Shown piece by piece: positions 24,670-44,911 of a DNA stretch of 64,000 nucleotides (its first letter is position 1; each line of letters begins with the position of its first letter). The notes under the pieces were generated by a model, which worked only from the letters and a program-made list of their open reading frames with translations, was not told where the DNA came from and did no database searches. The stretch comes from Streptomonospora litoralis (GTDB taxonomy: Bacteria; Actinomycetota; Actinomycetes; Streptosporangiales; Streptosporangiaceae): NCBI RefSeq assembly GCF_004323735.1, contig NZ_CP036455.1, forward strand, positions 2,723,101 through 2,787,100. The letters run 5' to 3'. Made by a program: the position numbers and the translations under genes.

Positions 24670-26811
24670 TCAGAGTAGCCCCGCCGCGCGCGCCCAGCGA
24701 TACTTCGCGCCGAGTACTTGGACGGGCTTCTCCGTGGTGTAGGGGTAGGCGACCACGCCGTGCTTGAACAGGTGGGCGCTGGCGGCCTCGACCTCGGTGT
24801 CGCCCGAGAGCGAGGCGACCACGGGCTTGTCGATCCCCGCGGCGCGGGCCTGGCCGACCACGTCGGCCACCAGCTCGGCGAAGACCATCGGCGGGGTGAC
24901 GATGGTGTGCCAGTAGCCCAGGATCAGCGAGTGCACCCGCGGGTCCTCCAGGCCCAGCCGGATGGTCTTCTCGTAGGTGGAGGGCGGCTCGCCGCCGGTG
25001 ATGTCGACCGGGTTGCCCGCCGCGCCGAACGGCGGGATGAAGGCCCGGAAGGACTCGTCGAGGTCGGGCGGGATGTCCATCAGCGACAGCCCGTTGTCGA
25101 CCACCGCGTCGGAGAGCAGCACGCCCGAGCCGCCGGCGCCGGTGATGATCACGACGTTCTCCCCGGCGGGCGTCGGCAGCACCGGCAGCGCGCGGCCGTA
25201 CTCCAGCAGCTCGTTGAGGCCGGGTGCGCGGACGACGCCGGCCTGGCGCAGGATGTCGTCGTAGACCTTGTCGTCGCCGGCCAGCGCGCCGGTGTGCGAC
25301 CCCGCCGCGCGGGCGCCCGCGGAGGTGCGGCCCGCCTTGAGCACGACCACCGGCTTCTTGGGCACCACTTCGCGGGCGGCCTGCACGAACGCGCGGCCGT
25401 CCTTGAGGTCCTCCAGGTGCATCGCGATCGCGTTGGTGTTGTCGTCCTGGCCGAAGAACGTCAGCAGGTCGTCCTCGTCGATGTCGGCCTTGTTGCCCAC
25501 GCCCACGATCGCCGAGACACCGGTGCTGGTGCTGCGGCTGTAGCCCAGGATCGCCATGCCGATTCCGCCCGACTGCGAGGTCAGCGCGGTGCCGCCGGCG
25601 ACGTCGTAGGGGGTGCAGAAGGTCGCCGAGAGGTTCTCGGGCGTGTAGTAGTAGCCGTAGATGTTGGGGCCCAGCAGGCGCACGCCGTGGCGGCGGGCCA
25701 CCGCCACCACCTCGTCCTGCAGTTCCTGCTCGCCGGTCTCGGCGAAGCCGGAGGGGATGAGGATCGCGCCGGCGACCCCCTTGCGGCCGGCCTCCTCCAG
25801 CGCGGAGGAGACGAACTTCGCCGGGATGGCGAAGACCGCGACGTCGATGTCGTCGGGGGCCTCGGCGATGGTGGGGTAGGCGGCGCGGCCGTAGACCTCG
25901 TCGGCCTTGGGGTTGATCGGGTAGACCTTCCCGGCGTAGCCGCCGTCGACGACGTTGCGGATGACCGAGTTGCCGATCTTGCCGTGCTCGTTGGACGCGC
26001 CGATGATCGCGATGGAGCGCGGTTTGAAGATGCGGTTCATCGAGGCCAGGATCTCCTCGCGGGTGAACCGCGCCGGCGGCTGGGCCGGGTCGAAGTCGAG
26101 GACGAAGCGCAGGTCGGCGGCCACACTGCCCGAGGCGGAGGCGAAGACCGGGTTGAGGTCGGCCTCGGAGATCTCGGGGAAGTCGGTGACCAGGTCGGAC
26201 AGGCGGGTGATGACGTCGGCCAGGCGGTCGGTGTCCACCGCCTCGCCGCCGCGCACGCCCGAGAGCACCTCGGCGGCCTTGATGTCACCGATCTGTGCGC
26301 GGGCCTCCTCGGCCGAGACGGGGGCCAGGCGGAAGGAGACGTCCTTGAGCACCTCCACCAGGACCCCGCCCAGGCCGAAGACGACGACCTTGCCGAAGGT
26401 GGGGTCGGTGGTGGCGCCGATCAGGACCTCTTGGCCCCCGCCCACCATCTGCTGCACCTGCACGCCCTCGATCACGGCCTCGGGGTTGTAGGCCCGGGCG
26501 TTGTCGACGATGCGCTGGTAGGCGGTCTTGACCTCCTCGGCCGAGGAGAGCCCGACCTCGACGCCGCCGGCGTCGGTCTTGTGCAGGATGTCGGGCGAGA
26601 CGATCTTTGCGACCACGGGCAGGCCCAGCTCGACGGCCAGTGATACCGCGTCGTCGGCGCTGGTGGCGAGTGCTTCGCCGGGGATGGGGATGCCGTAGGC
26701 CTCGGCGAGCACGCGGCCCTCGGGCGCCGTCAGCGCGCTGCGGCTCTCGGAGCGGGCCCGGTCGAGCACGGCGCGGACGGCATCGCGGTCGTAGCCGGTT
26801 TCCGTTGCCAT
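24670..26811 (-). CDS. ADP-forming acyl-CoA ligase (acetyl-CoA synthetase, NDP-forming, fused)
   Basis: This 713-residue protein fuses the two parts of ADP-forming acyl-CoA synthetases in beta-alpha order. The N-terminal ATP-grasp part has the histidine motif ILHKTDAGGVEVGL (His77). It is followed by the CoA-binding domain (SIAIIGASNEHGKIGNSV) and the ligase domain with the phosphohistidine segment AAGSHTGALAGDDKVYDD (about residue 510). Such enzymes interconvert acyl-CoA plus ADP and Pi with acid plus CoA and ATP. It starts 4 bp after the frc stop and is certainly in that operon. A role as oxalate-CoA or formate-CoA ligase is inference; acetate and other acids are alternatives. Confidence 0.88.
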   Translation of the reverse strand: MATETGYDRDAVRAVLDRARSESRSALTAPEGRVLAEAYGIPIPGEALATSADDAVSLAVELGLPVVAKIVSPDILHKTDAGGVEVGLSSAEEVKTAYQRIVDNARAYNPEAVIEGVQVQQMVGGGQEVLIGATTDPTFGKVVVFGLGGVLVEVLKDVSFRLAPVSAEEARAQIGDIKAAEVLSGVRGGEAVDTDRLADVITRLSDLVTDFPEISEADLNPVFASASGSVAADLRFVLDFDPAQPPARFTREEILASMNRIFKPRSIAIIGASNEHGKIGNSVIRNVVDGGYAGKVYPINPKADEVYGRAAYPTIAEAPDDIDVAVFAIPAKFVSSALEEAGRKGVAGAILIPSGFAETGEQELQDEVVAVARRHGVRLLGPNIYGYYYTPENLSATFCTPYDVAGGTALTSQSGGIGMAILGYSRSTSTGVSAIVGVGNKADIDEDDLLTFFGQDDNTNAIAMHLEDLKDGRAFVQAAREVVPKKPVVVLKAGRTSAGARAAGSHTGALAGDDKVYDDILRQAGVVRAPGLNELLEYGRALPVLPTPAGENVVIITGAGGSGVLLSDAVVDNGLSLMDIPPDLDESFRAFIPPFGAAGNPVDITGGEPPSTYEKTIRLGLEDPRVHSLILGYWHTIVTPPMVFAELVADVVGQARAAGIDKPVVASLSGDTEVEAASAHLFKHGVVAYPYTTEKPVQVLGAKYRWARAAGLL

Positions 26812-26815
26812 CTTC

Positions 26816-28045
26816 TCAGATCACTCCGTTCGCTTTGAGGGCTGCGAGTTCGTCGGGGGCCAGGCCCAGTTCGTCCTGGTAGACGTGGGTGTTGTGCTCG
26901 CCGAGAAGAGGGGAGCGGCCGACGTCGGCGGGGGAGTCCGACAGCCTCATCGGCAGCCCCACCGTCTTGTAGGTGCCGCGCTCGGGGTGCTCGACGGTGG
27001 CCACGATCCCGTTGGCGTTGAGCGTGGGGTCGTCGATGATCTCCTTGGTCGACAGGATCGGCCCGCAGGGGATGTTGTGCTCGTTGAGCGCGGCCAGCAC
27101 GTCCCACTTGGGCAGGTTGATCGACCACTCCTCGATCAGGCCGAAGGCCTTGTCGAGCTTGTCCAGCCGCGCCTCGGGGGTGGCCCAATCGGGGTCGGTG
27201 GCCAGTTCGGGCCGGCCGATGATCCGGGTGATGTGCTCCCAGCCGGTGGGCTGGATGATGACGTAGACGTAGTCGTTGGGGCCGCCGGGCGCCGTGCGCA
27301 CCGCCCAGCCGGGTTGCCCGCCGCCGGAGGCGTTGCCGGACCGGGGGACCTCGTCGCCGAAGTCCTCGTTGGGGTACTCGGACAGCGGACCGTGCGTCAG
27401 CCGCTGCTGGTCGCGCAGCTTGACCCGGCACAGGTTGAGCACCGAGTCCTGCATGGCGACCTCGACCCGCTGGCCCAGGCCGGTGCTGGTGCGCTGGTAC
27501 AGAGCGGCAAGGATACCGGCTACTGTATGCATTCCAGTGCCCGAATCGCCGATCTGTGCGCCGGTGGCCAGCGGGGGACCGGTCTCGAAGCCCGTGGTGC
27601 TCATCGAGCCGCCCATCGCCTGGGCGATGACCTCGTAGGCCTTGTACTCGGCGTAGGCGCCGGGGCCGAACCCCTTGATCGAGGCGTAGACCAGCCGGGG
27701 GTTGGCCTCGTGCAGCACCTCCCAGGTGAAGCCCATCCGGTCCAGTGCGCCGGGGGCGAAGTTCTCCACCAGCACGTCGCTGCGCTTGACCAGATCGAGG
27801 AAGAGGCGCTTGCCCTCGTCGCTCTTGGTGTTGAGTGTGATGCTGCGCTTGCTGCCGTTGAGCATCGTGAAGTAGAGGCTGTCGACATCGGGCAGGTCGC
27901 GCAGCTGGCGGCGGGTGATGTCCCCGGTGGGGGCCTCCACCTTGACCACGTCGGCGCCCAGCCAACCCAGGATCTGGGTGGCCGAGGGGCCGGACTGCAC
28001 GTGGGTCATGTCCAGGACGCGGACCCCGTCAAGTGCCTTGCTCAT
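26816..28045 (-). CDS. frc: Formyl-CoA:oxalate CoA-transferase
   Basis: This 409-residue CaiB/BaiF (class III) CoA-transferase closely matches E. coli Frc (YfdW) as I remember it. Shared segments include VQSGPSATQILGWLGADVVK, LYFTMLNGSKRSI, the catalytic aspartate in GDSGTGMH (Asp167, equivalent to Asp169 of YfdW), LNLCRVKLRDQQRL and the glycine loop GGGQPGW (241-247). It moves CoA from formyl-CoA to oxalate, giving oxalyl-CoA and formate. It sits 15 bp after the ThDP-enzyme gene and 4 bp before the ADP-forming ligase gene. A sequence resembling the GntR operator lies inside it near 27518. Confidence 0.93.
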   Translation of the reverse strand: MSKALDGVRVLDMTHVQSGPSATQILGWLGADVVKVEAPTGDITRRQLRDLPDVDSLYFTMLNGSKRSITLNTKSDEGKRLFLDLVKRSDVLVENFAPGALDRMGFTWEVLHEANPRLVYASIKGFGPGAYAEYKAYEVIAQAMGGSMSTTGFETGPPLATGAQIGDSGTGMHTVAGILAALYQRTSTGLGQRVEVAMQDSVLNLCRVKLRDQQRLTHGPLSEYPNEDFGDEVPRSGNASGGGQPGWAVRTAPGGPNDYVYVIIQPTGWEHITRIIGRPELATDPDWATPEARLDKLDKAFGLIEEWSINLPKWDVLAALNEHNIPCGPILSTKEIIDDPTLNANGIVATVEHPERGTYKTVGLPMRLSDSPADVGRSPLLGEHNTHVYQDELGLAPDELAALKANGVI

Positions 28046-28060
28046 GTGGCTCCTCCACGC

Positions 28061-29749
28061 CTACTTGTACATGGTCTGGTTCATCGTCCCCGGCGCGTAG
28101 ACCTCGGGGTCGATCCAGACGTTGATCAGCGAGGGCTTGCCGGACTCGCGTGCGCGCCGCAGCGCCGGCCCGATCTCGCCGGGCTCGCGCACCTCCTCGC
28201 CGTAGCCGCCGAGCATCTCGGCGAACTCCGAGTAGCGCACGTCGCCCAGCGTGTTGCCGATCTCGCCGCGGTCGGCGCCGTACTTTTCGATCTGGCCGTA
28301 GCGGATCTGGTTCATCGAGGAGTTGTTGCCGATGATCCCGATGAAGGGCATGTCGAAGCGCACCAGCGTCTCGAAGTCCCAGCCGGTGAGGCTGAACGCG
28401 CCGTCGCCGAACAGCGCGACGACCTCCTTCTCGGGGTAGGCGTACTTGGTCGCCATCACGAAGGGGACGCCGACGCCCAGCGTGCCCAGCGGGCCGGGGT
28501 CGAGCCAGTGGCCGGGGGCCTTGGGTTGGACGACCTGGCCGGAGAACGTGACGATGTCGCCGCCGTCGCCGATGTAGATCGAGTCCTCGGTGAGGAAGTC
28601 GTTGATCTCCGAAACCAGGCGGTAGGGGTGGATCGGCGTTGCGTCGGAGGTCAGCAGCGGGGTCCGCTTCTCCAGTGCCTTGTTCTCCACCTGGCGCAGC
28701 TCCTCCAGCCAGGTCTTGCGGCCCTGGGCCCCATTGTCGCCGTAGGCCGAGGTCGCCTGCAGCACCGAGGAGAGGATGACGTCGGCGTCGCCGACGATGC
28801 CCAGGTCGATGTCGCGGTTCTTGCCGACCGTGGCGTAGGAGAGGTCGATCTGGACCACCGTGGCGTCGGTCGACAGCCGCTTGCCGTAGCCCATGCGGAA
28901 GTCGAACGGGGTGCCGACGATGATGATCAGGTCGGAGTTGCCGAAGGCGTGCCGGCGGGAGAGCTGGAAGTGGTGGGGGTCGGCGGGGGGCAGCGTGCCG
29001 CGGCCGCCGCCGTTCATGTAGACGGGGACGTTGAGCGAGCGCACCAGGTCGGTGGCCGACTGGGTGGCCCGGGTGGTCCACACCTGGTGGCCCAGCAGGA
29101 TGCTGGGGCGCTCGGAGCGCACCAGCAGCTCGGCCAGGCGCTCGATCGCGTCGGGGTCGCCGCCCTGGCGGGTGGAGGCGCGGTAGTGGCCGGCCTTGGG
29201 TACGCGGGCCGACTCCACCGGGACCGAGGCGTCGAGGATGTCGCGCGGGATCTCCAGGAAGGACGGTCCGGGGGCGCCGCTGAGGGACTCCCGGAAGGCC
29301 ATCGACACCAGGTCGGCCACCCGCTCGGTGTGCGGGACGGTCGCGGCGAACTTGGAGATGGGGCCGATCATGTCGACGTGCGGCAAGTCCTGCAGCGAGC
29401 CCATCTTGTGCTGGCTGAGGGCGCCCTGGCCGCCGATCACCAGCAGCGGGCTCTCGGCGCGGTAGGCGTTGGCGATTCCGGTGATGGCGTCGGTGGTGCC
29501 GGGGCCGGCGGTGACCACGGCGCACCCGGGTTTGCCGGTCATCCGCGCGTAGCCGTCGGCGGCGTGGGCGGCCACCTGCTCGTGGCGGACGTCGATGACG
29601 TCGATGCCCTCGTCGGCACAGCCGTCGTAGATGTCGATGATGTGGCCGCCGCAGAGCGTGAAGATCACGTCGACCCCCTCGGCCTTGAGGGCCTTGGCGA
29701 CGAGGTGGCCGCCGGAGATCGTGGTGTCCCCACCCTTGTCGTCAGTCAT
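28061..29749 (-). CDS. ThDP-dependent enzyme in the oxalyl-CoA decarboxylase position (non-canonical)
   Basis: The 562-residue protein is a ThDP enzyme of the acetolactate-synthase superfamily, with catalytic glutamate in DVRHEQVAAHAADGYAR (Glu57) and the ThDP motif GDGAFSLTGWDFETL...IGNNSS. From its place upstream of frc it should decarboxylate oxalyl-CoA to formyl-CoA. However, it lacks the GVVGIPV and NEGANTLDN segments of Oxalobacter/E. coli OXC and ends in an unusual tail APGTMNQTMYK. The ATG at 29749 is chosen because AAAGGAG lies 12 nt before it; an ATG at 29761 abuts the same box. A GntR-type operator lies 23 bp upstream. Confidence 0.8.
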   Translation of the reverse strand: MTDDKGGDTTISGGHLVAKALKAEGVDVIFTLCGGHIIDIYDGCADEGIDVIDVRHEQVAAHAADGYARMTGKPGCAVVTAGPGTTDAITGIANAYRAESPLLVIGGQGALSQHKMGSLQDLPHVDMIGPISKFAATVPHTERVADLVSMAFRESLSGAPGPSFLEIPRDILDASVPVESARVPKAGHYRASTRQGGDPDAIERLAELLVRSERPSILLGHQVWTTRATQSATDLVRSLNVPVYMNGGGRGTLPPADPHHFQLSRRHAFGNSDLIIIVGTPFDFRMGYGKRLSTDATVVQIDLSYATVGKNRDIDLGIVGDADVILSSVLQATSAYGDNGAQGRKTWLEELRQVENKALEKRTPLLTSDATPIHPYRLVSEINDFLTEDSIYIGDGGDIVTFSGQVVQPKAPGHWLDPGPLGTLGVGVPFVMATKYAYPEKEVVALFGDGAFSLTGWDFETLVRFDMPFIGIIGNNSSMNQIRYGQIEKYGADRGEIGNTLGDVRYSEFAEMLGGYGEEVREPGEIGPALRRARESGKPSLINVWIDPEVYAPGTMNQTMYK

Positions 29750-29771
29750 CTGAGCACACATCTCCTTTATT

Positions 29772-29784
29772 GGATACTGCATAC
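29772..29784. promoter_or_regulatory. GntR operator candidate upstream of oxc-like gene
   Basis: GGATACTGCATAC matches the shared 13-bp motif GCATACTGTATAC at 11 of 13 positions. It lies 23 bp upstream of the start of the oxc-frc-ligase operon. Confidence 0.65.
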
Positions 29785-29823
29785 CGTATGGTTTCCATTG
29801 CTACACGAGCGTCGGTGCGGTGT

Positions 29824-31197
29824 CTAGACCGGAAGCGTGCGAATGGGCACCGGGCGCCGCAGTCGGGCCGCGACCGCGGCGGCCCCCAGGCCCGCCAGGC
29901 CGGCGGCGCCCAGGCACAGGGCCGGCCCCGTCTGCGGGACCAGCGAGATCAAGGCCGCCGCGCCGCCCACTCCCAGCAGGCCGCCCAGCGCCTTGGCGCT
30001 GTAGACGAGGCCGGGGATCTCGGCGCTGTCGCGGCTGCCGAAGAAGTCGTGGGCCAGGGTGCGGGTCAGCGGGTAGCAGCAGCCTCCGCCCACGCCCGCC
30101 GGCACGGCCATCAGTAACAGGAGCGCCCAGGAACCGGTCAGTGCCGCGGCGGCGAGGCCGAACTGGGCCGCCCCTCCGGCGGTCAGCGCCGCCACCAGGA
30201 TCCGGCGCCGGCCCATCCGCTCGCCCCAGCGCCCGGCCGCCGCGCGGCCCAGGCCGCTGGAGGCGACCAGGACGCCCATGGCCGCGGCGATCGCCCAGGC
30301 GGGCAGGCCGCCCCGAAACAGCAGCAGCGGCAGCACGGCCACGTCCACCAGTGCGGCGGCTCCGGCCAGCGCGACCACGGCGTGCAGTCCGGGCAGGGCG
30401 CCGCTGCGCCAGGCTTGTGCGGGGGAGTGGTCGAAAGCGGCCACCGGCTGGTTGCGGCGGCGCAGCGCCCAGGCGCGCGGATCGGTCTCCGGCGGCCACC
30501 AGTGCGCCGGGGGAGTGCGCAGCCCGATACCGGCTGCGGCGACCACGCAGGCCAGGGCCGCACCCAGCCACGGGGCGGCGGCCAAGTGGGCGGCCTCGGC
30601 CAGGACCAGGCCGGCGGTCAGCGGGACCGCGCCCAGCGCGAAGCCGGCGCCGGCCCACGCGGCGTGGCTCGCGGGCCGCTCGGGGTACCAGGCCGCGACG
30701 ACGTGCACGCTGGAGTGGTAGACGAGGCCGGCGCCCAGGCCGCCCGCCAGCCCGTAGGCCGCCAGCATCCAGCCCAGCTGCGCGGTGAGTCCCGGCGCTG
30801 CAAGGGCGGCGGCGCACAGCGGTGCACCGGCCACGATGGCGCGGGCGGGAGTGAGCAGGCCGCGTTCGCGCAGCCGGGCGATCGGCCAGGCGCTGCCGCC
30901 CTGGACCAGCGCCCACAGCGCGAAGGGCAGCAGCGCGGCCGCGGGGCTCCAGCCGTGGGCGGCCACCAGCAGAGGGACCGCCGCGCCGTAGCCGAACTGC
31001 AGCCCGCCGACGGCGGCGACCGCCGCGACAGCCCGGGCGAGGGGCACCGCGCGCGCCGTTCCTGCCAGTTCGCGGGCCGGGCGCCCCACGAGGTAGCGGC
31101 GCCCGCTCCAGTCGTGCAGTTCCCCGGTGCGGGGGGCGGGGACGTAGGGGGATGCCAGGTGGCCCGGAGGGGCTGTAGCGGGGGGTGGGTGGTTCAT
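29824..31197 (-). CDS. MFS transporter, OFA (oxalate:formate antiporter) family-like
   Basis: This 457-residue major-facilitator protein has about twelve helices. The central loop has HWWPPETDPRAWALRRR and a HSPAQAWRSG segment, the pattern (xWWPxxxDPxAWA ... YxPxEAxRTG) seen in actinobacterial OFA-family carriers. Its position in the oxalate locus supports oxalate uptake, perhaps in exchange for formate. The ATG at 31197 follows GAGGTG; a GTG/ATG further upstream would place the operator at 31224 inside the gene and is unlikely. A GntR operator lies 27 bp upstream. Confidence 0.82.
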   Translation of the reverse strand: MNHPPPATAPPGHLASPYVPAPRTGELHDWSGRRYLVGRPARELAGTARAVPLARAVAAVAAVGGLQFGYGAAVPLLVAAHGWSPAAALLPFALWALVQGGSAWPIARLRERGLLTPARAIVAGAPLCAAALAAPGLTAQLGWMLAAYGLAGGLGAGLVYHSSVHVVAAWYPERPASHAAWAGAGFALGAVPLTAGLVLAEAAHLAAAPWLGAALACVVAAAGIGLRTPPAHWWPPETDPRAWALRRRNQPVAAFDHSPAQAWRSGALPGLHAVVALAGAAALVDVAVLPLLLFRGGLPAWAIAAAMGVLVASSGLGRAAAGRWGERMGRRRILVAALTAGGAAQFGLAAAALTGSWALLLLMAVPAGVGGGCCYPLTRTLAHDFFGSRDSAEIPGLVYSAKALGGLLGVGGAAALISLVPQTGPALCLGAAGLAGLGAAAVAARLRRPVPIRTLPV

Positions 31198-31223
31198 GGC
31201 GCACCTCACAACGACCGTGGATC

Positions 31224-31236
31224 GTATACAGTATGC
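31224..31236. promoter_or_regulatory. GntR operator candidate (exact consensus) upstream of the carrier
   Basis: GTATACAGTATGC is the exact reverse complement of GCATACTGTATAC and is identical to the site at 43923. It is 27 bp upstream of the OFA-like carrier start. Confidence 0.75.
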
Positions 31237-31353
31237 GTCGCTGAACCGATTCTGAGAAGAGGGTGCGGCTTCCTTTCGTGAAATCACAGGGAGCGCACCG
31301 GATCACGCGGGTTGCATCGGCACGGCGGGGCGAGAGTCTCGCATGATGGTATT

Positions 31354-31366
31354 GCATACTGCATAC
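31354..31366. promoter_or_regulatory. GntR operator candidate upstream of sucC
   Basis: GCATACTGCATAC matches the motif at 12 of 13 positions and lies 60 bp before the sucC start. With the site at 31224 it brackets the divergent carrier/sucC promoter region. Confidence 0.7.
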
Positions 31367-31425
31367 GATCTCGCGTATCACAGTGGTGAGGGTCCCAGAC
31401 GACACAGCGATGCCGAGGAGGCTCG

Positions 31426-32598: not shown

Positions 32599-32618
32599 CC
32601 GGGGAGAGTGGATAAGGG

Positions 32619-33497: not shown

Positions 33498-33544
33498 CAA
33501 TCGCGGGTTGCGCCGTTTCCGGCAAAAGTCGCCGAATCAGCCGC

Positions 33545-33572
33545 GGCACGGCGGTGGCCGCCGCGCCGTGCC
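33545..33572. terminator. 9-bp hairpin between sucD and the aldehyde dehydrogenase gene
   Basis: GGCACGGCG (33545-33553) pairs exactly with CGCCGTGCC (33564-33572) over a 10-nt loop. It could end or attenuate the sucCD transcript before the dehydrogenase gene. Confidence 0.5.
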
Positions 33573-33628
33573 CGGGGGACCGTTGCAGCAGCAGAGTGAG
33601 CAGCACCGTAGACCACCAGGGGAAACCT

Positions 33629-36203: not shown

Positions 36204-36320
36204 ACGCGCCGCCGGCGCCGCCTTCTTCAGGCGCTGCCGCGGGAAAGTTGTCGGGACCGGCCGGCGCAGGGGGCTGGTGCACGCCGGCCGGTCTCGCGCC
36301 TACCGGCCCGGTCGGCGGAG

Positions 36321-37181: not shown

Positions 37182-37349
37182 GGACCTCCCCTTTCCGCAG
37201 AGCCGGGGGGCTCCCCGTGCCCGGCGTGCTTTCGGTGTGCGTGGACCGGACTCGGAAGGAATTCCCGTTTCCGTCCCTTTTCAGTCGTATCGGAATCCGA
37301 CCGCGCCGACCAGGCCGCGTGCGGCGGCCCCCGCGGGGGCCGCGCCGCG

Positions 37350-38291
37350 TCAGTCGCGCCTTCTCTGCTGTACGTGCTGGAACCCGAACCGCCCCTTGAT
37401 GCACAGGTTGCCGTGCGTCACCGGGTTGTCGTGCGGCGAGGTGACCTTGACGATCTCGTTGTCCTGGACGTGCAGGGTGACGTTGCAGCCCACTCCGCAG
37501 TAGGTGCAGATGGTGGTGGTCTCGCTCTGGCGGTCCTCGTCCCAGGTGCCCTCGTTGCGCATGTCGTACTCGGTCTTGAACGACAGCGCGCCGGTGGGGC
37601 AGACCTCGATGCAGTTGCCGCAGTAGACGCAGGCGGAGTCGGGCAGGGCGAAGTCGTGCTCGGTGGACACGCGGGCGTCGAAGCCGCGGCCGGCGATCCC
37701 GATCGCGAACGTGTTCTGCCACTGCTCGCCGCACGCGTCCACGCACTTGTAGCACATGATGCACTTGCCGTAGTCGCGCACGTAGAGGTCGTTGTCGATC
37801 TTGGTGGGCTGCTCCACGGTCTCGGCGGCCGTGCCGTCGCCGACCTCGTGCTCACCGGCGCGGCGGGCGTCGCGCTCGCCCATCGGCGCGGGCTCGGCCC
37901 GGGGGCCGAACCGCTCTGGACGGGCTTCGTAGCGCTCGTTCCACTCGGGGATCTTCGGTGTGGTGGACAGGTCCACCGAGGACCCCAGCAGCTCCAGCAC
38001 CATCTTGCGGCTGTGGCGGACCCGCTCGGAGTCGGTGGCCACCGACATGGACTCCTCGACCTTGCGCGAGCAGGCCGGCACCAGTGTGCGCGCCCCCTCC
38101 ACCTCGACCACGCACACGCGGCACGCGTTGCGCGGGGTGAGGGTGTCGCCGTAGCACAGGGTCGGCACCTCGGTGCCGACGGCCTCGCAGGCGTCCAGGA
38201 TGGTGGCGTCCTCGGGGACGCGGACCTCTTCGCCGTCGACGGTCACCTCGACCAGGCGGCGAGGCGTCCCGATAGCTACCGGTGTGCTCAC
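37350..38291 (-). CDS. Formate dehydrogenase iron-sulfur subunit carrying the N-terminal part of FdhA/FdsA
   Basis: The 313-residue protein corresponds to the first third of FdsA-type formate dehydrogenase catalytic chains. It has a 2Fe-2S domain (CYGDTLTPRNACRVCVVEVEG, then PAC), two 4Fe-4S motifs (CIMCYKCVDAC; CVYCGNCIEVCPTGAL), and the proximal 4Fe-4S site of the bis-MGD domain (CTYCGVGCNVTL ... NLCIKGRFGF). It stops exactly where the separate catalytic gene at 40729-42699 takes up the homology. GTG at 38291 follows a perfect AAAGGAGG and overlaps the NuoF-like stop codon, so translation is coupled. Confidence 0.9.
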   Translation of the reverse strand: MSTPVAIGTPRRLVEVTVDGEEVRVPEDATILDACEAVGTEVPTLCYGDTLTPRNACRVCVVEVEGARTLVPACSRKVEESMSVATDSERVRHSRKMVLELLGSSVDLSTTPKIPEWNERYEARPERFGPRAEPAPMGERDARRAGEHEVGDGTAAETVEQPTKIDNDLYVRDYGKCIMCYKCVDACGEQWQNTFAIGIAGRGFDARVSTEHDFALPDSACVYCGNCIEVCPTGALSFKTEYDMRNEGTWDEDRQSETTTICTYCGVGCNVTLHVQDNEIVKVTSPHDNPVTHGNLCIKGRFGFQHVQQRRRD

Positions 38292-39526
38292 CGGACCTCC
38301 TTTAGGGGTTGTTCCTCCTGCGGGCCGAACACGCCCAGCCGGTCGATCGCCGACTCCACCGCGTTCCACGCGGTCTGGCCCAGGCCGCAGATCGAGGCGT
38401 CGCGCATCGCCTCGCCCACCTCGCGCAGCAGTGCGACGTCGGTGCGGCGCGGTCCGCCGTCGGAGAGCCGCACCAGCGCCTCCTCCTGGCGGACGGTGCC
38501 GACCCGGCAGGGCACGCACTGGCCGCAGGACTCGTCGCGGAAGAACGCCGCGATGCGTACGAGGATCGCGGCCAGGTCGACGGTGTCGTCGAGTACCAGG
38601 ATGACGCCCGAACCCAGCGTGGCGCCGGCTTCGCGGGCGCCCTCGAAGGTCAGCGGGATGTCCAGTTCGTCGCCGCGCACGAATCCGCCGGCGGCGCCGC
38701 CGAGCAGCACGGCGCGCGGCTCGCGGGCGGTGCCGTCGGCGTTCGTGCCCGTGCCGCCGCACATCGCGATCAGCTCGCGCAGGCTCGCCCCGAAGGGGAC
38801 CTCGTAGACGCCGGGGCGCCGCACCGAGCCCGACACGCAGAACAGCTTGGGGCCGGTGGAGCGGCCGGTGCCGATGGCGGCGTAGCCGGGGCCGCCCATC
38901 AGCATGATCGGTAGCACGTTGACCAGGGTCTCGACGTTGTTGATGGCGGTGGGCTTGCCGAACACGCCGCGCTCGACCGGGAAGGGCGGCTTGCTGCGGG
39001 GCTCGCCGCGCAGCCCTTCGATCGAGTTGAAGATCGCGGTCTCCTCGCCGCAGATGTAGGCTCCGGCGCCGCGCCGGATCTCGATTTCGAAGTCGAAGCC
39101 GGAGCCGAGGATGTCGGTGCCCAGCAGGTTGCGCCCGCGGGCCAGCTCGATGGCGTTCTCCAGCAGCGACAGCGCCCGCGGGTACTCGCCGCGGATGTAG
39201 ATGTAGCCCTTGGCGGCGTTGTTGGCGTAGCCGGCGATGGTCAGCGACTCGATCACGGAGAACGGGTCGCCCTCCATGATCACCCGGTCCTTGAAGGTGC
39301 CGGGTTCGCTCTCGTCGGCGTTGCAGATGACGTAGCGGGGGGTCTCGGGCCGCTTGGCGGTGCCGTCCCACTTGCGCCCGGTGGGGAAGGCCGCGCCGCC
39401 GCGTCCGACCAGGCCGGAGTCGTTCACCTCGCGGATGACGCCGCTGGGGCCCATCCGCAGCGCCTCGCGCAGCGCGGCGTAGCCGCCGTTGGCGCGGTAG
39501 TCGTCCAGGCTGGCGGGGTCGACCAC
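38288..39526 (-). CDS. NuoF/FdsB-like NADH-binding subunit of formate dehydrogenase (probably 3' part of a frameshifted NuoEF fusion)
   Basis: The 412-residue frame from the GTG at 39526 encodes a NuoF-type flavoprotein. It has GRGGAAFPTGRKW (FMN/NADH loop), GAGAYICGEETAIFNSIEGLRG and the 4Fe-4S motif ESCGQCVPCRVGT. It passes electrons from formate to NAD+. The GTG has no good ribosome binding site, and homology-like sequence (DDDLVLLRRIG) continues upstream in the same frame to about 39619 without a start codon. The NuoE-like frame ends its similarity there, so both probably form one protein interrupted by a frameshift at a six-C run (39620-39625). Confidence 0.8.
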   Translation of the reverse strand: MVDPASLDDYRANGGYAALREALRMGPSGVIREVNDSGLVGRGGAAFPTGRKWDGTAKRPETPRYVICNADESEPGTFKDRVIMEGDPFSVIESLTIAGYANNAAKGYIYIRGEYPRALSLLENAIELARGRNLLGTDILGSGFDFEIEIRRGAGAYICGEETAIFNSIEGLRGEPRSKPPFPVERGVFGKPTAINNVETLVNVLPIMLMGGPGYAAIGTGRSTGPKLFCVSGSVRRPGVYEVPFGASLRELIAMCGGTGTNADGTAREPRAVLLGGAAGGFVRGDELDIPLTFEGAREAGATLGSGVILVLDDTVDLAAILVRIAAFFRDESCGQCVPCRVGTVRQEEALVRLSDGGPRRTDVALLREVGEAMRDASICGLGQTAWNAVESAIDRLGVFGPQEEQPLKEVR

Positions 39527-39619
39527 GCCGATCCGGCGCAGCAGGACCAGGTCGTCGTCGCCCGCCTGGGGGACCGCGGTCGCCGCGGAGGGCTCGGGTG
39601 CGGGGCCGGGCAGGGTCTC

Positions 39620-40334
39620 GGGGGGAGAAGGTGGCGCGCGGGGCGGGGTGGCTCAGGTGGGGGCCGGGGCCGTCGCCGTTCTGGGAGGGGCCGTGGCCGT
39701 TGACGGATCCGGGCCGGGGGAGCGGGTGGTCGGGGTTGTCGGCGGCGGGCCCTGCCGCGACCTCACCGGGCCCGGGGACGATGTCGTCGGCGGAGGCCGG
39801 AGCGGCGACGCTGTAGCGGGGCGGGTCGCCGGCCTCCAGCGACAGTGCCGCCGGCGCGCGTTCGCACAGTCCCAGGCAGGGACTCTCGTGCCAGGTGAAC
39901 TCGCCGCCCTCGGTGCCCGCAGGGCCGGCGCGCTCGGTCAGCTGCGCGCACAGCCCCGCCGAGTCCTTGGCCGCGCAGGCGATGTCGGTACAGACGTGCA
40001 CGACCCGGCGGGGTCGCTCCTTGAGGGAGAACATCGCATAGAAGGTCGCGACGCCGTAGGCCTCGGCAGGCGGGATCGTCAGCCGGCGGCAGATGTAGTC
40101 GAGTGCGGCGGGGCTGATCCAGCCCACCCGGTCGTTGACGGCGTGCAGGGCCGGCAGGAGCAGGTCGCGACGGCCGCGGGCGACGTGGCCGCCCTCGGCG
40201 AATCGCAGATCGGAGGCCTGGCGCGTGCCGCCGTCCCACCCCGACTCCGGCGGGCCGAGGACGGCGTCCACGGCCTCCCGCTCGGCGGGCTCCGGCACAG
40301 CATCCAGGAAGTGCAGGTCCACGTCCCCGGTCAC
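39620..40334 (-). CDS. NuoE/FdsG-like subunit (5' part of a probable NuoEF fusion)
   Basis: From GTG 40334 about 238 codons encode a NuoE-type thioredoxin-like 2Fe-2S domain. Its four ligands lie in HVCTDIACAAKD and HESPCLGLCERAP, preceded by ALHAVNDRVGWISPAAL and YGVATFYAMFSL. The last 50 residues are a Pro/Gly-rich linker. Its own frame has no stop until 37350, but beyond about 39620 it runs antisense to sense in the wrong frame of the NuoF part. Removing one base of the C run at 39620-39625 joins the two in one frame. A GntR operator lies 39 bp upstream. Confidence 0.75.
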
Positions 40335-40372
40335 CTCGAATCATGTAAGCCAGGTCACAGACGTTGTATACG

Positions 40373-40385
40373 GGCTACAGTATGC
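40373..40385. promoter_or_regulatory. GntR operator candidate upstream of the NuoE-like gene
   Basis: GGCTACAGTATGC matches the reverse motif GTATACAGTATGC at 11 of 13 positions, with an extra GTATAC just before it (40366-40371). It is 39 bp from the gene start. Apart from this and the terminator at 40680, the spacer 40335-40728 holds nothing recognisable. Confidence 0.6.
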
Positions 40386-40679
40386 TTCATTCCTACCGTG
40401 GGCAACCCCTGGTCGCTTGCGTGTTCGGCGGTACCGAGCACCGGTGGCCGGGGGTGCGCACAGGGTGGCGCCGACCAGGCCGCGGCGGATCGCAGCGCCC
40501 TCGATCGTGCCGGCGCGGTGCCGGCAGCGGCCGCCCGGGCGCCGTACGGGCGGCCGCCCCGGATGCGCGCCGGGCGGCACGCGTGTGCCGCGGCGGGGCG
40601 CATCACCGGCCCCCCGCCCGCCCGCCGCGCAGCGCGGTCCGCGCCCGGGTGCCGGGTGGCGAACAGCGCACCCGGGCAT

Positions 40680-40708
40680 GCGGCCGGGACCGCGTGGATC
40701 CCGGCCGC
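40680..40708. terminator. 10-bp hairpin after the formate dehydrogenase catalytic gene
   Basis: Positions 40680-40689 pair exactly with 40699-40708 (GCGGCCGGGA and complement) over a 9-nt loop, 21 bp beyond the stop of the catalytic subunit gene. A separate promoter for the NuoE-like gene is therefore likely. Confidence 0.6.
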
Positions 40709-40728
40709 GGACCGCGCGGCTCACGGCG

Positions 40729-42699
40729 TCAGGGCGACGCCGGTACAGGAGCCGCTCCGGCGGCCCCCGCGGGCGCCGCGCCCTCGATCAGCTTCTCGAT
40801 GTTCACGGCCGCCGCCTTGTACTCGGCGGTGCCGGCCACCGGGTCGGTGGCGTCGATGGTCAGCAGCTGGGTGTCGACCTGGTCGGGGAAGTGGAAGGTC
40901 ATGAACACCAGCCCCGCACGCATCTCCGTCGCGATCGAGGCGGGTACCAGCACCGATCCCCGGCGCGAGGAGACGCGCACGGTCTCGCCGTCGGCGATGC
41001 CCAGCCGCTCGGCGTCCTCGGGCGAGATGTCCAGCAGTTCGCCGCGCCGCATGGGCGAGGAGAACCCGCTGGTCTGCACACCGGTGTTGTAGTCGTCCAG
41101 CCGGCGGCCCGTGGTCAGGCGGAAGGGGTAGTCGTCGTCGAGCAGGTCGACCGGAGGCGAGTGGCCGACGATGCCGAAGGGGGCCGCCTCGCCCCGCTTG
41201 CCGGGGTCGGTCGACCACAGTCGGGAGTGCAGGAACGGCGGCTCCAGGCTGTCCTCGGAGTAGCACGGCCACTGGATGCCGTGCAGTTCCTCCAGCCGCT
41301 GATAGGTCATGCCGCGGTGGATGGGGGACAGGCTGCGCAGCTCGTCCCACACCTCCTCGGCACTCGGCTGCTGCCAGGCGTGGCCCAGGCGCTGGGCGAG
41401 GTCGCACATGATGGCGATGTCGTCGCGCGCGCCCGGCGGGGGGTCCAGCGCCTTGCGCACCAGCTGCACCCGGCGCTCGCTGTTCGTGAAGGTGCCGTCG
41501 GACTCGCACCAGGACGCGCTGGCGGGAAGCACGACGTCGGCCAACTCGGCGGTCTTGGTCAGGAAGATGTCCTGGACCACCAGGTGGTCCAGCCGCTCAA
41601 GGCGGCGGGTGGTGGTCATCGTCTCGGGCTCCGACTGCACCGGGTTCTCGCCGATGATGTAGAGGGTCTTCAGCTCGCCCCCGTCCATCGACTCGAACAT
41701 CTGGGTGAGCGTCTTGCCCTTGCTGGGCTGGATCGAGGTGTTCCAGACCGACTCGAACCGGGTGCGGACCTCGGCGTCGAGAATGTCCTGGAACCCGGCG
41801 AGGCGGTCGGGGATGGCGCCCATGTCGCCGCCGCCCTGGACGTTGTTCTGCCCGCGCAGCGGCTGCAGTCCCGAGCCGTGGCGGCCGACGTGCCCGGTGA
41901 GCAGCGCCAGGTTGATCAGCGCCTTGACGTTGTCGGTGGCGTTGTGGTGCTCGGTGATGCCCAGGGTCCAGCACAGCTGGGCTCGCTCGGCGGTGGCGTA
42001 GGCGTGGGCGAGCTCGCGGATGGCCTCGGCGGGCACGCCCGTCTCGGCCTCGGCCGCGGCGAGCGTCCACGGCTCCACCAGCTCGCGGTACTCCTCGAAT
42101 CCGGAGGTGCCGCGCCGGATGAAGGTCTCGTTGGCCAGCCCGGCGTGGATGATCTCGCGCCCGATGGCGTGCGCAAGCGGGATGTCGGTGCCGACGTTGA
42201 GGCCGAGCCAGCGGTCCGCCCACTGGGCCGACGACGTGCGCCGGGGGTCGACCGCGAACATCCGCGCGCCGTTGTGCAGGCCCTTGAGCACGTGCTGGAA
42301 GAAGATCGGGTGGGCGGCGCGCGGGTTGCCTCCCCACACGATGACCAGGTCGGTGTCCTCGACCTCGGCATAGGAGGAGGTGCCCCCTCCCGAGCCGAAG
42401 GCGGCGGAGAGGCCGGCCACGCTGGGGGCGTGGCAGGTGCGGTTGCAGGAGTCGACGTTGTTGGTGCCCATGACGACTCGGGTGAACTTCTGGGCGACGA
42501 AGTTCATCTCGTTGGTGGCCCGGGCGCAGGAGAGCATGCCGAACGCGTCGGGGCCGTGCCGTTCCACGCCGGTGCGGAAGCCGGCGGCGGCGCGGTCGAG
42601 TGCCTCCTCCCAGGAGGCGGGGCGCAGTCGGCCGTCCTCGCGCACGAGCGGGCGAGTGAGGCGTTCGTAGCTGCTGGGCTGGTGATCGTCCGATCGCAT
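40729..42699 (-). CDS. Formate dehydrogenase molybdopterin catalytic subunit (lacks its N-terminal Fe-S domain)
   Basis: The 656-residue protein is the bis-MGD catalytic part of a formate dehydrogenase. The metal-ligand cysteine and proton-relay histidine are in NRTCHAPSVAGL (Cys89, His90). GQNNVQGGGDMG, PLAHAIGREIIHAGL and the C-terminal molybdopterin-binding FRLTTGRRLDDYNTGVQT are also present. It begins at YERLTRPLVREDGRLRPASWEEAL, the point just after the proximal 4Fe-4S site in normal FdhA/FdsA; that site is in the gene at 37350-38291. Together the two make about 969 residues, the usual full length. ATG at 42699 has GAGG 10 nt upstream. Confidence 0.9.
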   Translation of the reverse strand: MRSDDHQPSSYERLTRPLVREDGRLRPASWEEALDRAAAGFRTGVERHGPDAFGMLSCARATNEMNFVAQKFTRVVMGTNNVDSCNRTCHAPSVAGLSAAFGSGGGTSSYAEVEDTDLVIVWGGNPRAAHPIFFQHVLKGLHNGARMFAVDPRRTSSAQWADRWLGLNVGTDIPLAHAIGREIIHAGLANETFIRRGTSGFEEYRELVEPWTLAAAEAETGVPAEAIRELAHAYATAERAQLCWTLGITEHHNATDNVKALINLALLTGHVGRHGSGLQPLRGQNNVQGGGDMGAIPDRLAGFQDILDAEVRTRFESVWNTSIQPSKGKTLTQMFESMDGGELKTLYIIGENPVQSEPETMTTTRRLERLDHLVVQDIFLTKTAELADVVLPASASWCESDGTFTNSERRVQLVRKALDPPPGARDDIAIMCDLAQRLGHAWQQPSAEEVWDELRSLSPIHRGMTYQRLEELHGIQWPCYSEDSLEPPFLHSRLWSTDPGKRGEAAPFGIVGHSPPVDLLDDDYPFRLTTGRRLDDYNTGVQTSGFSSPMRRGELLDISPEDAERLGIADGETVRVSSRRGSVLVPASIATEMRAGLVFMTFHFPDQVDTQLLTIDATDPVAGTAEYKAAAVNIEKLIEGAAPAGAAGAAPVPASP

Positions 42700-42754
42700 C
42701 TTCTGGGGCCTCGCTTGGGTCTCGTGGCCACTGCGGTGGACCGCAGGAAATATT

Positions 42755-42767
42755 GTCTACAGTATGC
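42755..42767. promoter_or_regulatory. GntR operator candidate upstream of the catalytic formate dehydrogenase gene
   Basis: GTCTACAGTATGC matches the motif at 12 of 13 positions and is 56 bp upstream of the gene start. Confidence 0.7.
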
Positions 42768-42858
42768 GACGCCTATACCGCAGGCAAGGGGAAGCGGACA
42801 AGGGCGGTGCGGCCGCGGGGAAGGGGCGACGGGCAGGGGGCCGCCCCTTCGGCCCCTC

Positions 42859-43890
42859 TCAGGCTGCGGGTGCGGGGGCGGCGGCAGCGGCGCCGGCGGC
42901 CATCCGGCTCGCCACCGAGCCGTCGACGAGCCGGGCGTTGAGCAGCCGGGCCACGGCGTCCACGGTGCGCAGGGTGGGCACCTGGGCCCCGACAAGATCC
43001 GCCAGCTCCACCACGGCGGTGAGGATGACGTCGAGCTCCATCGGGCGGCCGCGCTCCACGTCGTGCAGGGTGGAGGTGCGGTGGTCCCCGGCGCGCTCGG
43101 CGCCGGCCAGGCGGCGCTCGACGGAGATCTCCGGGCGGATCCCCAGGCGCGCCGCGACTTCCAGCGTCTCGTTCATCATCGCCCGCGCCAGTTCACGCGA
43201 GGAGCGGTCGCCGCAGATCTGCGCCATGGTGGAGCGGGTCAGCGCGCTGAGGGGGTTGAAGGTGATGTTGCCCATCAGCTTGACCCAGATGTCCTCGCGC
43301 AGCTCGGGCTCGACCGGGCACTTCAGCCCGCCGGCGACCATGGCGTCGGCGAAGTCGGTGCAGCGCCGCGAGATCGAGCCGTCGGGCTCGCCGATGGAGA
43401 ACCGGGTGCCCTCCAGATGGCGGATGACGCCGGGGCCCTCGATCTCGGTGGCGGCGTAGACGACGCAGCCGATGGCGCGTTCCACCGGGATCGCCCGGCT
43501 GACCGAGCCTTGCGGGTCGACCGTGTGCACCCGGTGCTCGGCCAGCGGGCCCGCAACGCCGTGGAAGTACCACCAGGGGATGCCGTTCTGCGCGGCGACC
43601 ACGGCCGTGCCGGGCCCCATCAGCGGGCGCAGCATCGGGCCGCACCCGGCGTAGTGCTGGGCCTTGAGCCCCAGGAAGACGATGTCGACCGGCCCGATCT
43701 CGCGGGGGTCGTCGGTGGCGTGGGGGCGCGCGGCGAAGTCCCCCCGGTCGCTGAGGACGCGCACGCCGCGGGCTCGCAGGGCCTCCAGGTGGGGGCCGCG
43801 GGCGATCATGTGGACGTCGGCCCCTCCGCGGTGCAGGGCCGCGCCGGCGTAGGCGCCGATCGCGCCGGCGCCGAGGATGGCGATTCTCAT
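42859..43890 (-). CDS. Ketopantoate reductase family protein, probable oxalyl-CoA reductase (PanE2-like)
   Basis: The 343-residue protein has the fold of 2-dehydropantoate 2-reductase. It shows the NADP-binding GAGAIGAYAG (residues 7-16), QNGIPWWYF, the catalytic lysine in EDIWVKLMGNITFNPLSAL (Lys204) and GRPMELDVIL. In Methylobacterium extorquens, panE2 next to oxalate genes is reported to encode oxalyl-CoA reductase producing glyoxylate. The setting here suggests the same, though a pantoate role is possible. ATG at 43890 follows GGAG, and an exact GntR motif lies 33 bp upstream. Confidence 0.85.
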   Translation of the reverse strand: MRIAILGAGAIGAYAGAALHRGGADVHMIARGPHLEALRARGVRVLSDRGDFAARPHATDDPREIGPVDIVFLGLKAQHYAGCGPMLRPLMGPGTAVVAAQNGIPWWYFHGVAGPLAEHRVHTVDPQGSVSRAIPVERAIGCVVYAATEIEGPGVIRHLEGTRFSIGEPDGSISRRCTDFADAMVAGGLKCPVEPELREDIWVKLMGNITFNPLSALTRSTMAQICGDRSSRELARAMMNETLEVAARLGIRPEISVERRLAGAERAGDHRTSTLHDVERGRPMELDVILTAVVELADLVGAQVPTLRTVDAVARLLNARLVDGSVASRMAAGAAAAAPAPAA

Positions 43891-43922
43891 ACTGCACTCC
43901 GTTCTCTCGCCCGAACGATTTT

Positions 43923-43935
43923 GTATACAGTATGC
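43923..43935. promoter_or_regulatory. GntR operator candidate (exact consensus) upstream of the PanE2-like gene
   Basis: GTATACAGTATGC is identical to the site at 31224 and lies 33 bp upstream of the reductase start. Confidence 0.75.
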
Positions 43936-44162
43936 TGATGTCGGTGCATGTGGCGAGGGGGTGGCTGCGGAAAAGGAACGGGTGAATGCAGGCGAACAGC
44001 AAGTTCCCGAGTTCTTCTCCGCCACCGGGTCCTCGCCCGCAGGGGGCGTGCGCGGCCTCGCCGGCCGCCGCACCCGCCGGGTGCCCATCCGTGCGATCGC
44101 GGGCCGCGAGCCGTCCGCGGGCCCGCGATCGCCGCTCGGACTGCGCCGCCGCAGTGGATTTC

Positions 44163-44175
44163 GTAGACTGTCTAC
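44163..44175. promoter_or_regulatory. GntR operator candidate upstream of the regulator gene
   Basis: GTAGACTGTCTAC is a perfect palindrome around a central T and matches GCATACTGTATAC at 10 of 13 positions. It lies 52 bp upstream of the GntR gene, consistent with autoregulation. Confidence 0.65.
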
Positions 44176-44227
44176 ACCATGCCGATCATCCGATAGGCAT
44201 CACCGTGCGACGGGCAGGAGCGGCGCA

Positions 44228-44911
44228 ATGACCACACAGCCGTTGAAAGCCGCGCTGAGTGGGCGGGTGCAACGGCCTGTCCCACTGCGTGAGGCGGTAT
44301 ACGAGACTATCCTCAACCTGATCATCACCCGGGAGTTCCCACCCGGCCGGCACCTGGTCGAGAGCGAACTCGCCGAGCAGCTCGGCGTCTCCCGGCAGCC
44401 GGTGCGCGAGGCCCTGCAGCGGCTGAGCAACGAAGCCTGGGTCGACCTGCGCCCCGGCTACGGGGCTTTCGTGCACACACCCACCGAGAGCGAGGCCGAC
44501 CAGCTCCTGGCCGTGCGCGCCGTGCTGGAGACCGAGGCCGCCCGCCTGGCCGCGGGCACCGCAGGGCCGGCGCAGGTCGAGTACCTGCGCGAACTGTGGC
44601 GCGCCGGGGTCGGTGCCGTGGACGACGCCGACGTCGACTCGGTGGTCACCGCCAACGCCGACTTCCACCGCGGTGTCATCGAGGCGTCGGGCAACCGCGT
44701 GCTGGCCGAGCTGGCATCCCAGGTCGACCGCAGAGTGCGCTGGTACTACGCCCCCATCGCGCGTTCCCGCGGCATGGCCTCCTGGGACGAGCACGCCGGC
44801 ATCATCGAGGCCGTCGCCGCCGGGGACGCCGACGAGGCCGCCCGGCTGATGAACGAGCACACCGAGCGCACCCGGCTCACCTACCACGAGAACTTCGACG
44901 CCGGCTTCTGA
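44228..44911 (+). CDS. GntR family regulator, FCD subfamily
   Basis: This 227-residue regulator has an N-terminal winged helix (REAVYETILNLIITREFPPG; QLGVSRQPVREALQRL) and a C-terminal FCD domain. The metal-binding positions are visible in ANADFHRGV, DEHAGII and MNEHTERT. The ATG at 44228 follows CAGGAGCGG. It is divergent from the PanE2-like gene. The related 13-bp motif upstream of this gene and of six other units between 29.7 and 44 kb makes it the likely regulator of the oxalate/formate genes. The ligand is probably oxalate, glyoxylate or a CoA derivative (inference). Confidence 0.9.
   Translation: MTTQPLKAALSGRVQRPVPLREAVYETILNLIITREFPPGRHLVESELAEQLGVSRQPVREALQRLSNEAWVDLRPGYGAFVHTPTESEADQLLAVRAVLETEAARLAAGTAGPAQVEYLRELWRAGVGAVDDADVDSVVTANADFHRGVIEASGNRVLAELASQVDRRVRWYYAPIARSRGMASWDEHAGIIEAVAAGDADEAARLMNEHTERTRLTYHENFDAGF

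Follow-up and report, generated by a model that had tools for sequence, protein, structure and literature searches.

GntR regulators of the FadR subfamily recognise the consensus GTM-N0-1-KAC, in which some groups have a gap of 2 nt; weaker extra boxes, 7-12 nt from the site centre, are described in 13 of the groups (PMC4494728). NanR binds (GGTATA)3 arrays with three dimers (PMC8012715), and three metal-site histidines have been described for HypR (PMC6608401). The oxalyl-coenzyme A (CoA) decarboxylase Oxc of Methylobacterium extorquens has the active-site residues Y134, E135, Y497 and S568: a Tyr-Glu pair, a second Tyr and a C-terminal Ser (PMC8411744). No GntR regulator of oxalate catabolism is named in the titles or abstract openings of the open-licence papers listed by the literature searches; the main text of PMC12927642 contains neither 'GntR' nor a word beginning 'regulat', and PMC10192776 contains no word of the latter kind. 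Here we describe an oxalate-formate gene island in a 64,000-nt stretch of Streptomonospora litoralis DNA (contig NZ_CP036455.1, positions 2,723,101 to 2,787,100 of the forward strand; hereafter the window), and the regulator that is proposed to control it:

44228-44911, plus strand: GntR regulator of the FCD (FadR) subfamily, proposed island regulator (PF07729 98.8 bits, PF00392 69.1 bits, both over the cut-off)

The reading that we favour, with a probability of about 0.86, is that the island forms one regulon of this GntR. The protein would bind arrays in which GT(A/C)(G/T)AC occurs two or three times with 7-bp spacing; one such array lies within the formyl-CoA transferase gene frc and the others at seven promoters, that of the regulator gene among them. 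Most likely it is a repressor that leaves the promoters once its C-terminal domain has bound a small pathway acid (oxalate, glyoxylate or a thioester). The genes thereby switched on would serve import, activation with CoA (by Frc and by two ADP-forming ligases), oxalyl-CoA decarboxylation, in which an enzyme like the 2-hydroxyacyl-CoA lyases would replace Oxc, the oxidation of formate, and a reductive branch towards glyoxylate. Genes of the glycerate pathway come next in the same operon in several genera, and a distant TauE-type permease would also belong to the regulon. An earlier sequence-only reading of this DNA had proposed a single FCD-type GntR regulon over the island. A motif found de novo, promoters that keep it through rearrangement, a bias towards first genes and an association with one GntR clade all argue for that proposal.

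The same reading had listed seven copies of one 13-bp palindrome. All seven are present (with 0, 0, 1, 1, 2, 2 and 3 mismatches), and the distance of 23-60 bp between motif and gene start that it gave fits the measured start-codon distances. The gene downstream of the 40373 copy had its start corrected to GTG 40334, in frame with its NuoE domain, and the distance there is therefore about 39 bp. An eighth array, inside frc at 27518, had been left unlisted. The eight arrays are given below, with scores from the position weight matrix (PWM) obtained by the seedless motif search:

27511-27530, minus strand: intragenic operator-like array of three cores in frc, codons about 171-178; 18.5 bits
29772-29791, minus strand: operator upstream of the operon of the thiamine diphosphate (TPP) enzyme, three core-like units; 28.1 bits
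31224-31236, minus strand: operator upstream of the MFS carrier, exact consensus; 22.6 bits
31354-31366, plus strand: operator upstream of sucCD-aldh, 1 mismatch; 23.7 bits
40366-40385, minus strand: operator upstream of the formate dehydrogenase (FDH) NuoE-NuoF gene, three cores; 14.9 bits; also in G001, G002, G004, G005, G015, G028 and G013
42755-42767, minus strand: operator upstream of fdhA, 1 mismatch; 27.7 bits
43923-43935, minus strand: operator upstream of the panE2-like gene, exact consensus; 29.6 bits, the best in the window
44163-44175, plus strand: operator upstream of gntR itself, two cores GTAGAC-T-GTCTAC; 14.3 bits, the weakest of the seven by PWM; same core pair in G001-G005 and G015

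The seven motif copies are not a product of chance. Allowing up to three mismatches, the exact consensus has 14 strand-wise matches in the window, compared to a mean of 1.59 and a maximum of 5 in 100 dinucleotide shuffles. All 14 fall within 27518-44182, at eight places: the seven promoter sites and 27518 inside frc. The palindrome turned out to be part of a larger unit, namely the FadR-subfamily core GT(A/C)(G/T)AC in two or three near-copies every 7 bp. Each of the eight arrays has two to three GTM-N0-1-KAC cores, 7 bp apart, with 0 or 1 mismatch each, as the subfamily consensus has it; of the three units before tpp, two qualify by this measure. Core pairs with 7-bp spacing and at most one mismatch in sum occur five times in the window, every one at an operator. 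The other spacings between 5 and 24 yield 0-4 pairs, unless they are multiples of three, which yield 7-16. The 13-mer as the entire operator was rejected, since the seedless motif covers the core together with flanking cores. The sites of the sequence-only reading are real, but because of the 7-bp phasing and of the FadR-subfamily consensus with its extra boxes, the operator is better described as a regular tandem array of a known class than as a lone 13-bp palindrome.

The proposed regulator has an N-terminal GntR winged helix and a C-terminal FCD domain, which place it in the FadR/FCD subfamily. Its AlphaFold2 model, of high confidence (predicted local distance difference test, pLDDT, 88.9), has three helices and two strands followed by an all-helical domain, and among solved structures it is closest to GntR-family regulators (PmiR, a Brucella GntR, Atu1419/VanR and McbR). 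Alignments of 16 and of 30 sequences show no variation at N143, H147, H189 and H211, a pattern that fits a metal-binding FCD pocket; a small acid would be its ligand.

Two comparison sets were used: homologous loci of relatives (G-numbered) and 80 actinomycete loci, the best 80 of a longer match list, from Nocardiopsis, Streptomonospora, Amycolatopsis, Saccharopolyspora, Nonomuraea, Pseudonocardia, Actinoplanes and other genera. The two sets are not independent, as L136, L159, L195 and L201 seemingly come from the same genomes as G015, G031, G033 and G008. In the relatives' loci, the motif recurs before the same genes despite very different gene orders. With frc, tpp, oxc, panE2, fdhA and sucC counted as island genes, 70 of the 80 loci have one or more of them in the stretch that was retrieved. 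These 70 loci contain 213 motif places (up to two mismatches) versus 1 for the reversed control, and the 10 loci without island genes contain 1 versus 0.

Motif searching without a seed used 200 upstream stretches of 150 bp (gntR 56, tpp 45, panE2 44, sucC 31, fdhA 18, oxc 5, mfs 1). Expectation-maximisation was run 60 times from random starts, and the six best runs all converged on TACTGCATACAGTAT or its reverse complement, with an estimated 89% of the sequences carrying the motif. When the resulting PWM was scanned over the window, all positions above 11.1 bits were at the seven promoters or inside frc; the best matches in 20 random windows of the same composition ranged from 8.2 to 15.9 bits. 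With a site defined as at least 14 bits within 200 bp of the start, first genes have a site in 44/44 (panE2), 31/31 (sucC), 43/45 (tpp), 63/70 (gntR beside an island), 15/18 (fdhA), 4/5 (oxc) and 9/19 (mfs) cases. Inner operon genes (frc, adpACS, nramp, sucD, aldh, fdhS, nuoF, fdhD, hyi, glxR, gcl) have one in 4 of 267; assignment to this group followed the gene names, and a few of the hyi, gcl and frc copies may in fact come first in their operons. A gntR gene without an island has a site in 2 of 10 cases. The regulon thus defined appears to be conserved, and its regulator is of the known FadR/FCD class.

A further 7-bp-phased array of the same core type is found at L110 4280-4299 and L111 4462-4481 (G001 and G004), with a related single match in G002, G003 and G028. 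The array is possibly another target or the site of another regulator.

The sequence-only reading had asked for a genome scan, on the ground that a motif equally frequent in unrelated places would speak against it. The genome (5,814,190 bases) was searched with the reversed pattern as control. The exact consensus with up to two mismatches has 10 matches, six of them in the 20-kb island; two further ones, with two mismatches, are at 1658342 and 5669141. Since the control has 7 matches across the whole genome, the motif is no commoner outside the island than the control. The loose pattern GYAKACTGYMTRC, which had been offered as the search tool, proved a poor detector that does not separate signal from control genome-wide. 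With up to two mismatches it has 24 matches in the window versus 14.9 expected (2 of 100 shuffles reach 24), and with up to one mismatch it has 43 in the genome versus 39 for the control.

Without mismatches, GYAKACTGYMTRC occurs five times in the genome: at four island sites and at G000:C1:202795, about 110 bp upstream of a gene for a TauE/SafE-family permease (PF01925, 143 bits). The 13-mer at this last site, GCATACAGTCTAC, was found in at least seven of 13 other genomes among the matches listed, in all seven cases upstream of a tauE gene. This search has no rows for G017 and G031, and the tauE gene search left out G011, G012, G013, G017 and G031. Because the tauE loci were chosen for carrying the 13-mer, the seven out of seven means that GCATACAGTCTAC marks tauE, and not that all tauE genes carry the site. 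In G026, which has a GntR with 72% identity but no frc or TPP-enzyme match at the limits used, a variant of the site is present at tauE; in G040, a tauE-type permease gene (52% identical) adjoins gntR. The extent of the regulon was therefore understated: its island units hold, and a permease encoded far from the island is predicted to be added to the oxalate pathway.

The hyi-glxR-gcl operon (glycerate pathway) of the study genome also has a strong site (22.6 bits). As a conserved target it was played down, and the other five members of the genus lack the hyi site. Among the 80 loci, 14 have glxR-gcl downstream of sucC-sucD in the same orientation, with hyi present in nearly every case; this arrangement fits a route from oxalyl-CoA through glyoxylate to glycerate.

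The array inside frc is written in the codons GGA ATG CAT ACA GTA, which are rare except for ATG. Among their synonymous codons in 14 genes from within and beside the island, GGA is used 36/639 times, CAT 6/135, ACA 9/355 and GTA 13/544. These codons are identical in G000-G004, G015 and G028 (7 of 8 genomes), with one change in G005. Of the 409 frc codons, no more than 7 have A or T in the third position in at least five of the eight genomes, and codons 171, 173, 174, 175 and 177 account for five of these. The array is absent in G012, G013, G006 and G011, and no other frc copy examined exceeds 6.7 bits; among the genera examined, it appears limited to this genus and two near ones. The likeliest reading is that it acts as an auxiliary operator or a roadblock, and it is a clear candidate for an in-gene operator preserved through rare codons. 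The lac operator O2 lies inside lacZ. Both would be operators within the coding sequence of a gene that they control, control of frc being predicted; for the frc array, looping or a roadblock is as yet a conjecture.

Several observations weigh against a conserved regulon under this one regulator. The gntR (14.3 bits) and 40366 (14.9 bits) sites are within the range of chance matches, although they are conserved in relatives; as neither is exceptional by score, conservation is what supports them. First-gene rates, apart from that for mfs, are favoured because the same promoter classes trained the PWM, which the inner-gene classes did not; mfs was hardly in the training set, and a site is present in no more than the nine cases given above. 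Over 13 relatives, whole-genome totals at up to two mismatches are 178 versus 111 for the control, and the control is the higher in G015 and G026; with this modest excess, enrichment of the motif is local and not genome-wide. Relatives also have copies in 8.5-kb stretches without any queried gene (L113 3971, L115 4316, L120 4320 and L121 4125; one exact in G004, one with one mismatch in G011, and two with two mismatches in G013 and G002). A hyi site (up to three mismatches, within 400 bp) was found in only 2 of 30 genomes. When 9-codon windows of frc are ranked by overall codon identity, the stretch with the array does not come out among the highest. Lastly, a paralogous GntR (G000:C1:3545355; L033 8358-9005), 66% identical and encoded 0.8 Mb away, has the same recognition helix, SRQPVREALQRL.

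Among the alternatives, the one that survives best, though we consider it unlikely, is that the GntR is an activator, or that it acts through a few sites and the remainder are relics. The distances from site to start codon vary, and regulators of the FadR class are described as activating or repressing depending on the position of the site (PMC6608401). Against relics, the sites are kept over many genera and rearrangements.

The second alternative, which we hold to be slightly less probable than the first, concerns the pathway: the cluster could serve the cleavage of 2-hydroxyacyl-CoA, as in 2-hydroxyisobutyrate breakdown, and not oxalate. The TPP enzyme would then release formyl-CoA and an aldehyde, to be oxidised by the aldehyde dehydrogenase. 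The two genes on which this question turns are:

26816-28045, minus strand: frc, formyl-CoA transferase (TIGR03253 640 bits, cut-off 504)
28061-29749, minus strand: TPP enzyme (tpp) of the 2-hydroxyacyl-CoA-lyase-like branch, proposed oxalyl-CoA decarboxylase (TIGR03254 247 bits, cut-off 739)

In the sequence-only reading, the genes made up an oxalate set that included decarboxylation. For frc, FDH and FdhD this stands, but the score of the 28061 enzyme is far below the cut-off for canonical Oxc. Its closest solved relatives are 2-hydroxyacyl-CoA lyases (closest chain 7pt3), as the cleavage alternative would have it. The Oxc of G031 keeps Y134, E135 and Y497 when compared to solved Oxc chains, with the places marked by the mutant chain 7b2e. 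Aligned to it, the 28061 enzyme has Leu119-Gln120 in place of the Tyr-Glu pair and an Ile where the second Tyr would be, followed by a Tyr two positions later; it thus lacks these Oxc residues, and the region of the C-terminal Ser aligns poorly. Gln at the place of the Oxc Glu is described in two lyase/synthases (PMC11271303), and an actinobacterial lyase cluster has an aldehyde dehydrogenase and a GntR gene (PMC7176365), both of which favour cleavage.

The lyase cluster as described in PMC7176365, however, is without frc, and frc is clear in the island. In addition, gcl, hyi and glxR join the operon, and five of the 80 loci have canonical oxc instead of the TPP enzyme. One of these five is seemingly G031 again, whose Oxc is the sole one in 60 genomes over the cut-off (978 bits), is encoded near frc, and has the same motif in front. 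No locus among the 80 has both enzyme types. In the 60 genomes, frc is present in 19 (E up to 1e-120): the 28061-type enzyme occurs in 18 of these (identity at least 77%), canonical oxc in one, and no genome has both, so that the 28061-type enzyme accompanies frc wherever canonical oxc is missing.

From its position in the island, the 28061 enzyme is likeliest to be a lyase-branch enzyme that took over the decarboxylation of oxalyl-CoA. An all-actinobacterial Oxc group has been reported (PMC10192776). On balance, we lean towards a widespread actinomycete oxalate regulon, with an oxalate-responsive GntR, 7-bp-phased core arrays and an auxiliary operator in frc, in which the decarboxylation step would belong to a second, so far unrecognised lineage of oxalyl-CoA decarboxylases. 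The canonical Oxc model is then predicted to miss most of this group, as one of the 19 frc-bearing genomes among the 60 passes its cut-off, and oxalate users throughout these genera would escape present models. Two features are surprising: the swap of the decarboxylase lineage, and the array within frc that is preserved by its codons.

The third alternative accepts the sites as real operators and assigns them to the paralogous GntR or to both proteins. The paralog, with its identical recognition helix, is also present in other members of the genus, and in the study genome it could cross-bind. The motif goes with the island GntR clade, however, and not with the paralog group: 12 paralog-type gntR promoters have no site at up to three mismatches within 220 bp (five of these genes were placed by tree and seven by sequence likeness only), in contrast to the 63 of 70 at island-type gntR genes, and the 19-kb paralog locus of the study genome has none. 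L161, L187 and L205, in which gntR has no island nearby, were kept out of the paralog-type count; two of the three have a site. A motif search in the paralog promoters was discarded, as it returned merely the conserved start of the coding region. G014, G017, G027, G031, G032 and G033 have one GntR each with more than 50% identity among the matches listed, all with site-bearing islands. Because the 12 paralog promoters lack the site and six island genomes lack a second such GntR among those matches, the island GntR seems to be enough, and we regard control by the paralog as the least probable of the three alternatives.

The remaining genes of the island are:

22846-24447, minus strand: Nramp-family transporter that follows the frc operon, as it does in many relatives (NF037982, 459 bits)
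24670-26811, minus strand: fused ADP-forming acyl-CoA ligase (PF19045, PF13549; NCBIfam ligase models all below cut-off, e.g. TIGR02717 463 of 567)
29824-31197, minus strand: MFS carrier in the OxlT slot (PF07690; TIGR04259 56.6 bits, cut-off 335)
31426-35176, plus strand: sucC-like and sucD-like genes (ADP-forming acid-CoA ligase) and aldehyde dehydrogenase gene (profile matches)
36321-37181, minus strand: FdhD, FDH accessory sulfurtransferase (PRK00724 393 bits, cut-off 269)
37350-38255, minus strand: FDH iron-sulfur subunit, a NuoG-like ferredoxin part and the first 53 or so positions of the FdhA model (profile match)
38288-40334, minus strand: FDH diaphorase part, a NuoE domain (from GTG 40334) and NuoF (38288-39526) in different frames (profile match)
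40729-42699, minus strand: FDH catalytic subunit (fdhA), without the N-terminal 50 or so model positions (TIGR01591 649 bits, cut-off 666, model positions 50-672)
42859-43890, minus strand: PanE/ApbA-family reductase, panE2-like (PF02558, PF08546; NCBIfam PRK06522.1-4)

A carrier had been placed in the regulon; the MFS carrier does have an operator, but its score is far below the OxlT cut-off. In the aldehyde dehydrogenase, Cys and Glu stand at the positions that we take to be catalytic. The PanE/ApbA reductase is likely an oxalyl-CoA reductase that would give glyoxylate. NuoE and NuoF are a single-frame fusion in all 10 relatives examined, and their different frames in the study genome are either a frame break or a sequencing error. 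A nuoE frame at 39763-40344 was rejected as out of frame; it had given misleadingly low nuoE identities. The FDH alpha chain (37350-42699, minus strand) is split: its first 53 or so model positions end the iron-sulfur subunit gene, and the remainder forms a gene some 2.5 kb off, preceded by a separate operator. In relatives, these are two separate genes as well. Between aldh and fdhD, an open frame at 35393-36367 (plus strand) has no Pfam or NCBIfam match, and its arginine-rich translation suggests a wrong frame rather than a gene.

The island thus offers a proposed regulator, operator and gene set for oxalate use in these actinomycetes, and a testable prediction. Compared to described systems, its metabolic side is nearest to two. 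As in the oxalate pathway of Methylobacterium extorquens (Oxc, PanE2; PMC8411744), there is a PanE-type putative oxalyl-CoA reductase, likened by family only, and a formyl-CoA route; the TPP enzyme of the island is of another branch, however, and control would be by a GntR. The actinobacterial 2-hydroxyacyl-CoA lyase cluster of PMC7176365 has a related TPP enzyme with a GntR gene and an aldehyde dehydrogenase nearby, whereas the island has frc and FDH; other genera add the glycerate pathway, and some genera have canonical oxc.

On the regulatory side, the FadR/FCD-subfamily regulons with 2-nt cores (UxuR, PrpR, MdcY and HypR groups) share with the island the core GTM-KAC in A/T-rich surroundings, extra boxes near the main site and a role in carboxylic-acid metabolism, and a copy in front of the regulator gene, as in the island, may be counted as a further likeness (PMC4494728). 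The word 'oxalate' does not occur in the main text of that paper, and in the island each extra box is a complete core, placed strictly at 7-bp intervals. E. coli NanR, with its (GGTATA)3 operator, is likewise an FCD-type GntR on two or three close repeats (PMC8012715). The NanR repeats are direct GGTATA units, whereas each island unit is near-palindromic; cooperative assembly of NanR needs a 32-residue N-terminal extension (PMC8012715). In its binding to arrays, NanR may nonetheless provide a mechanical parallel to the operators of the island.

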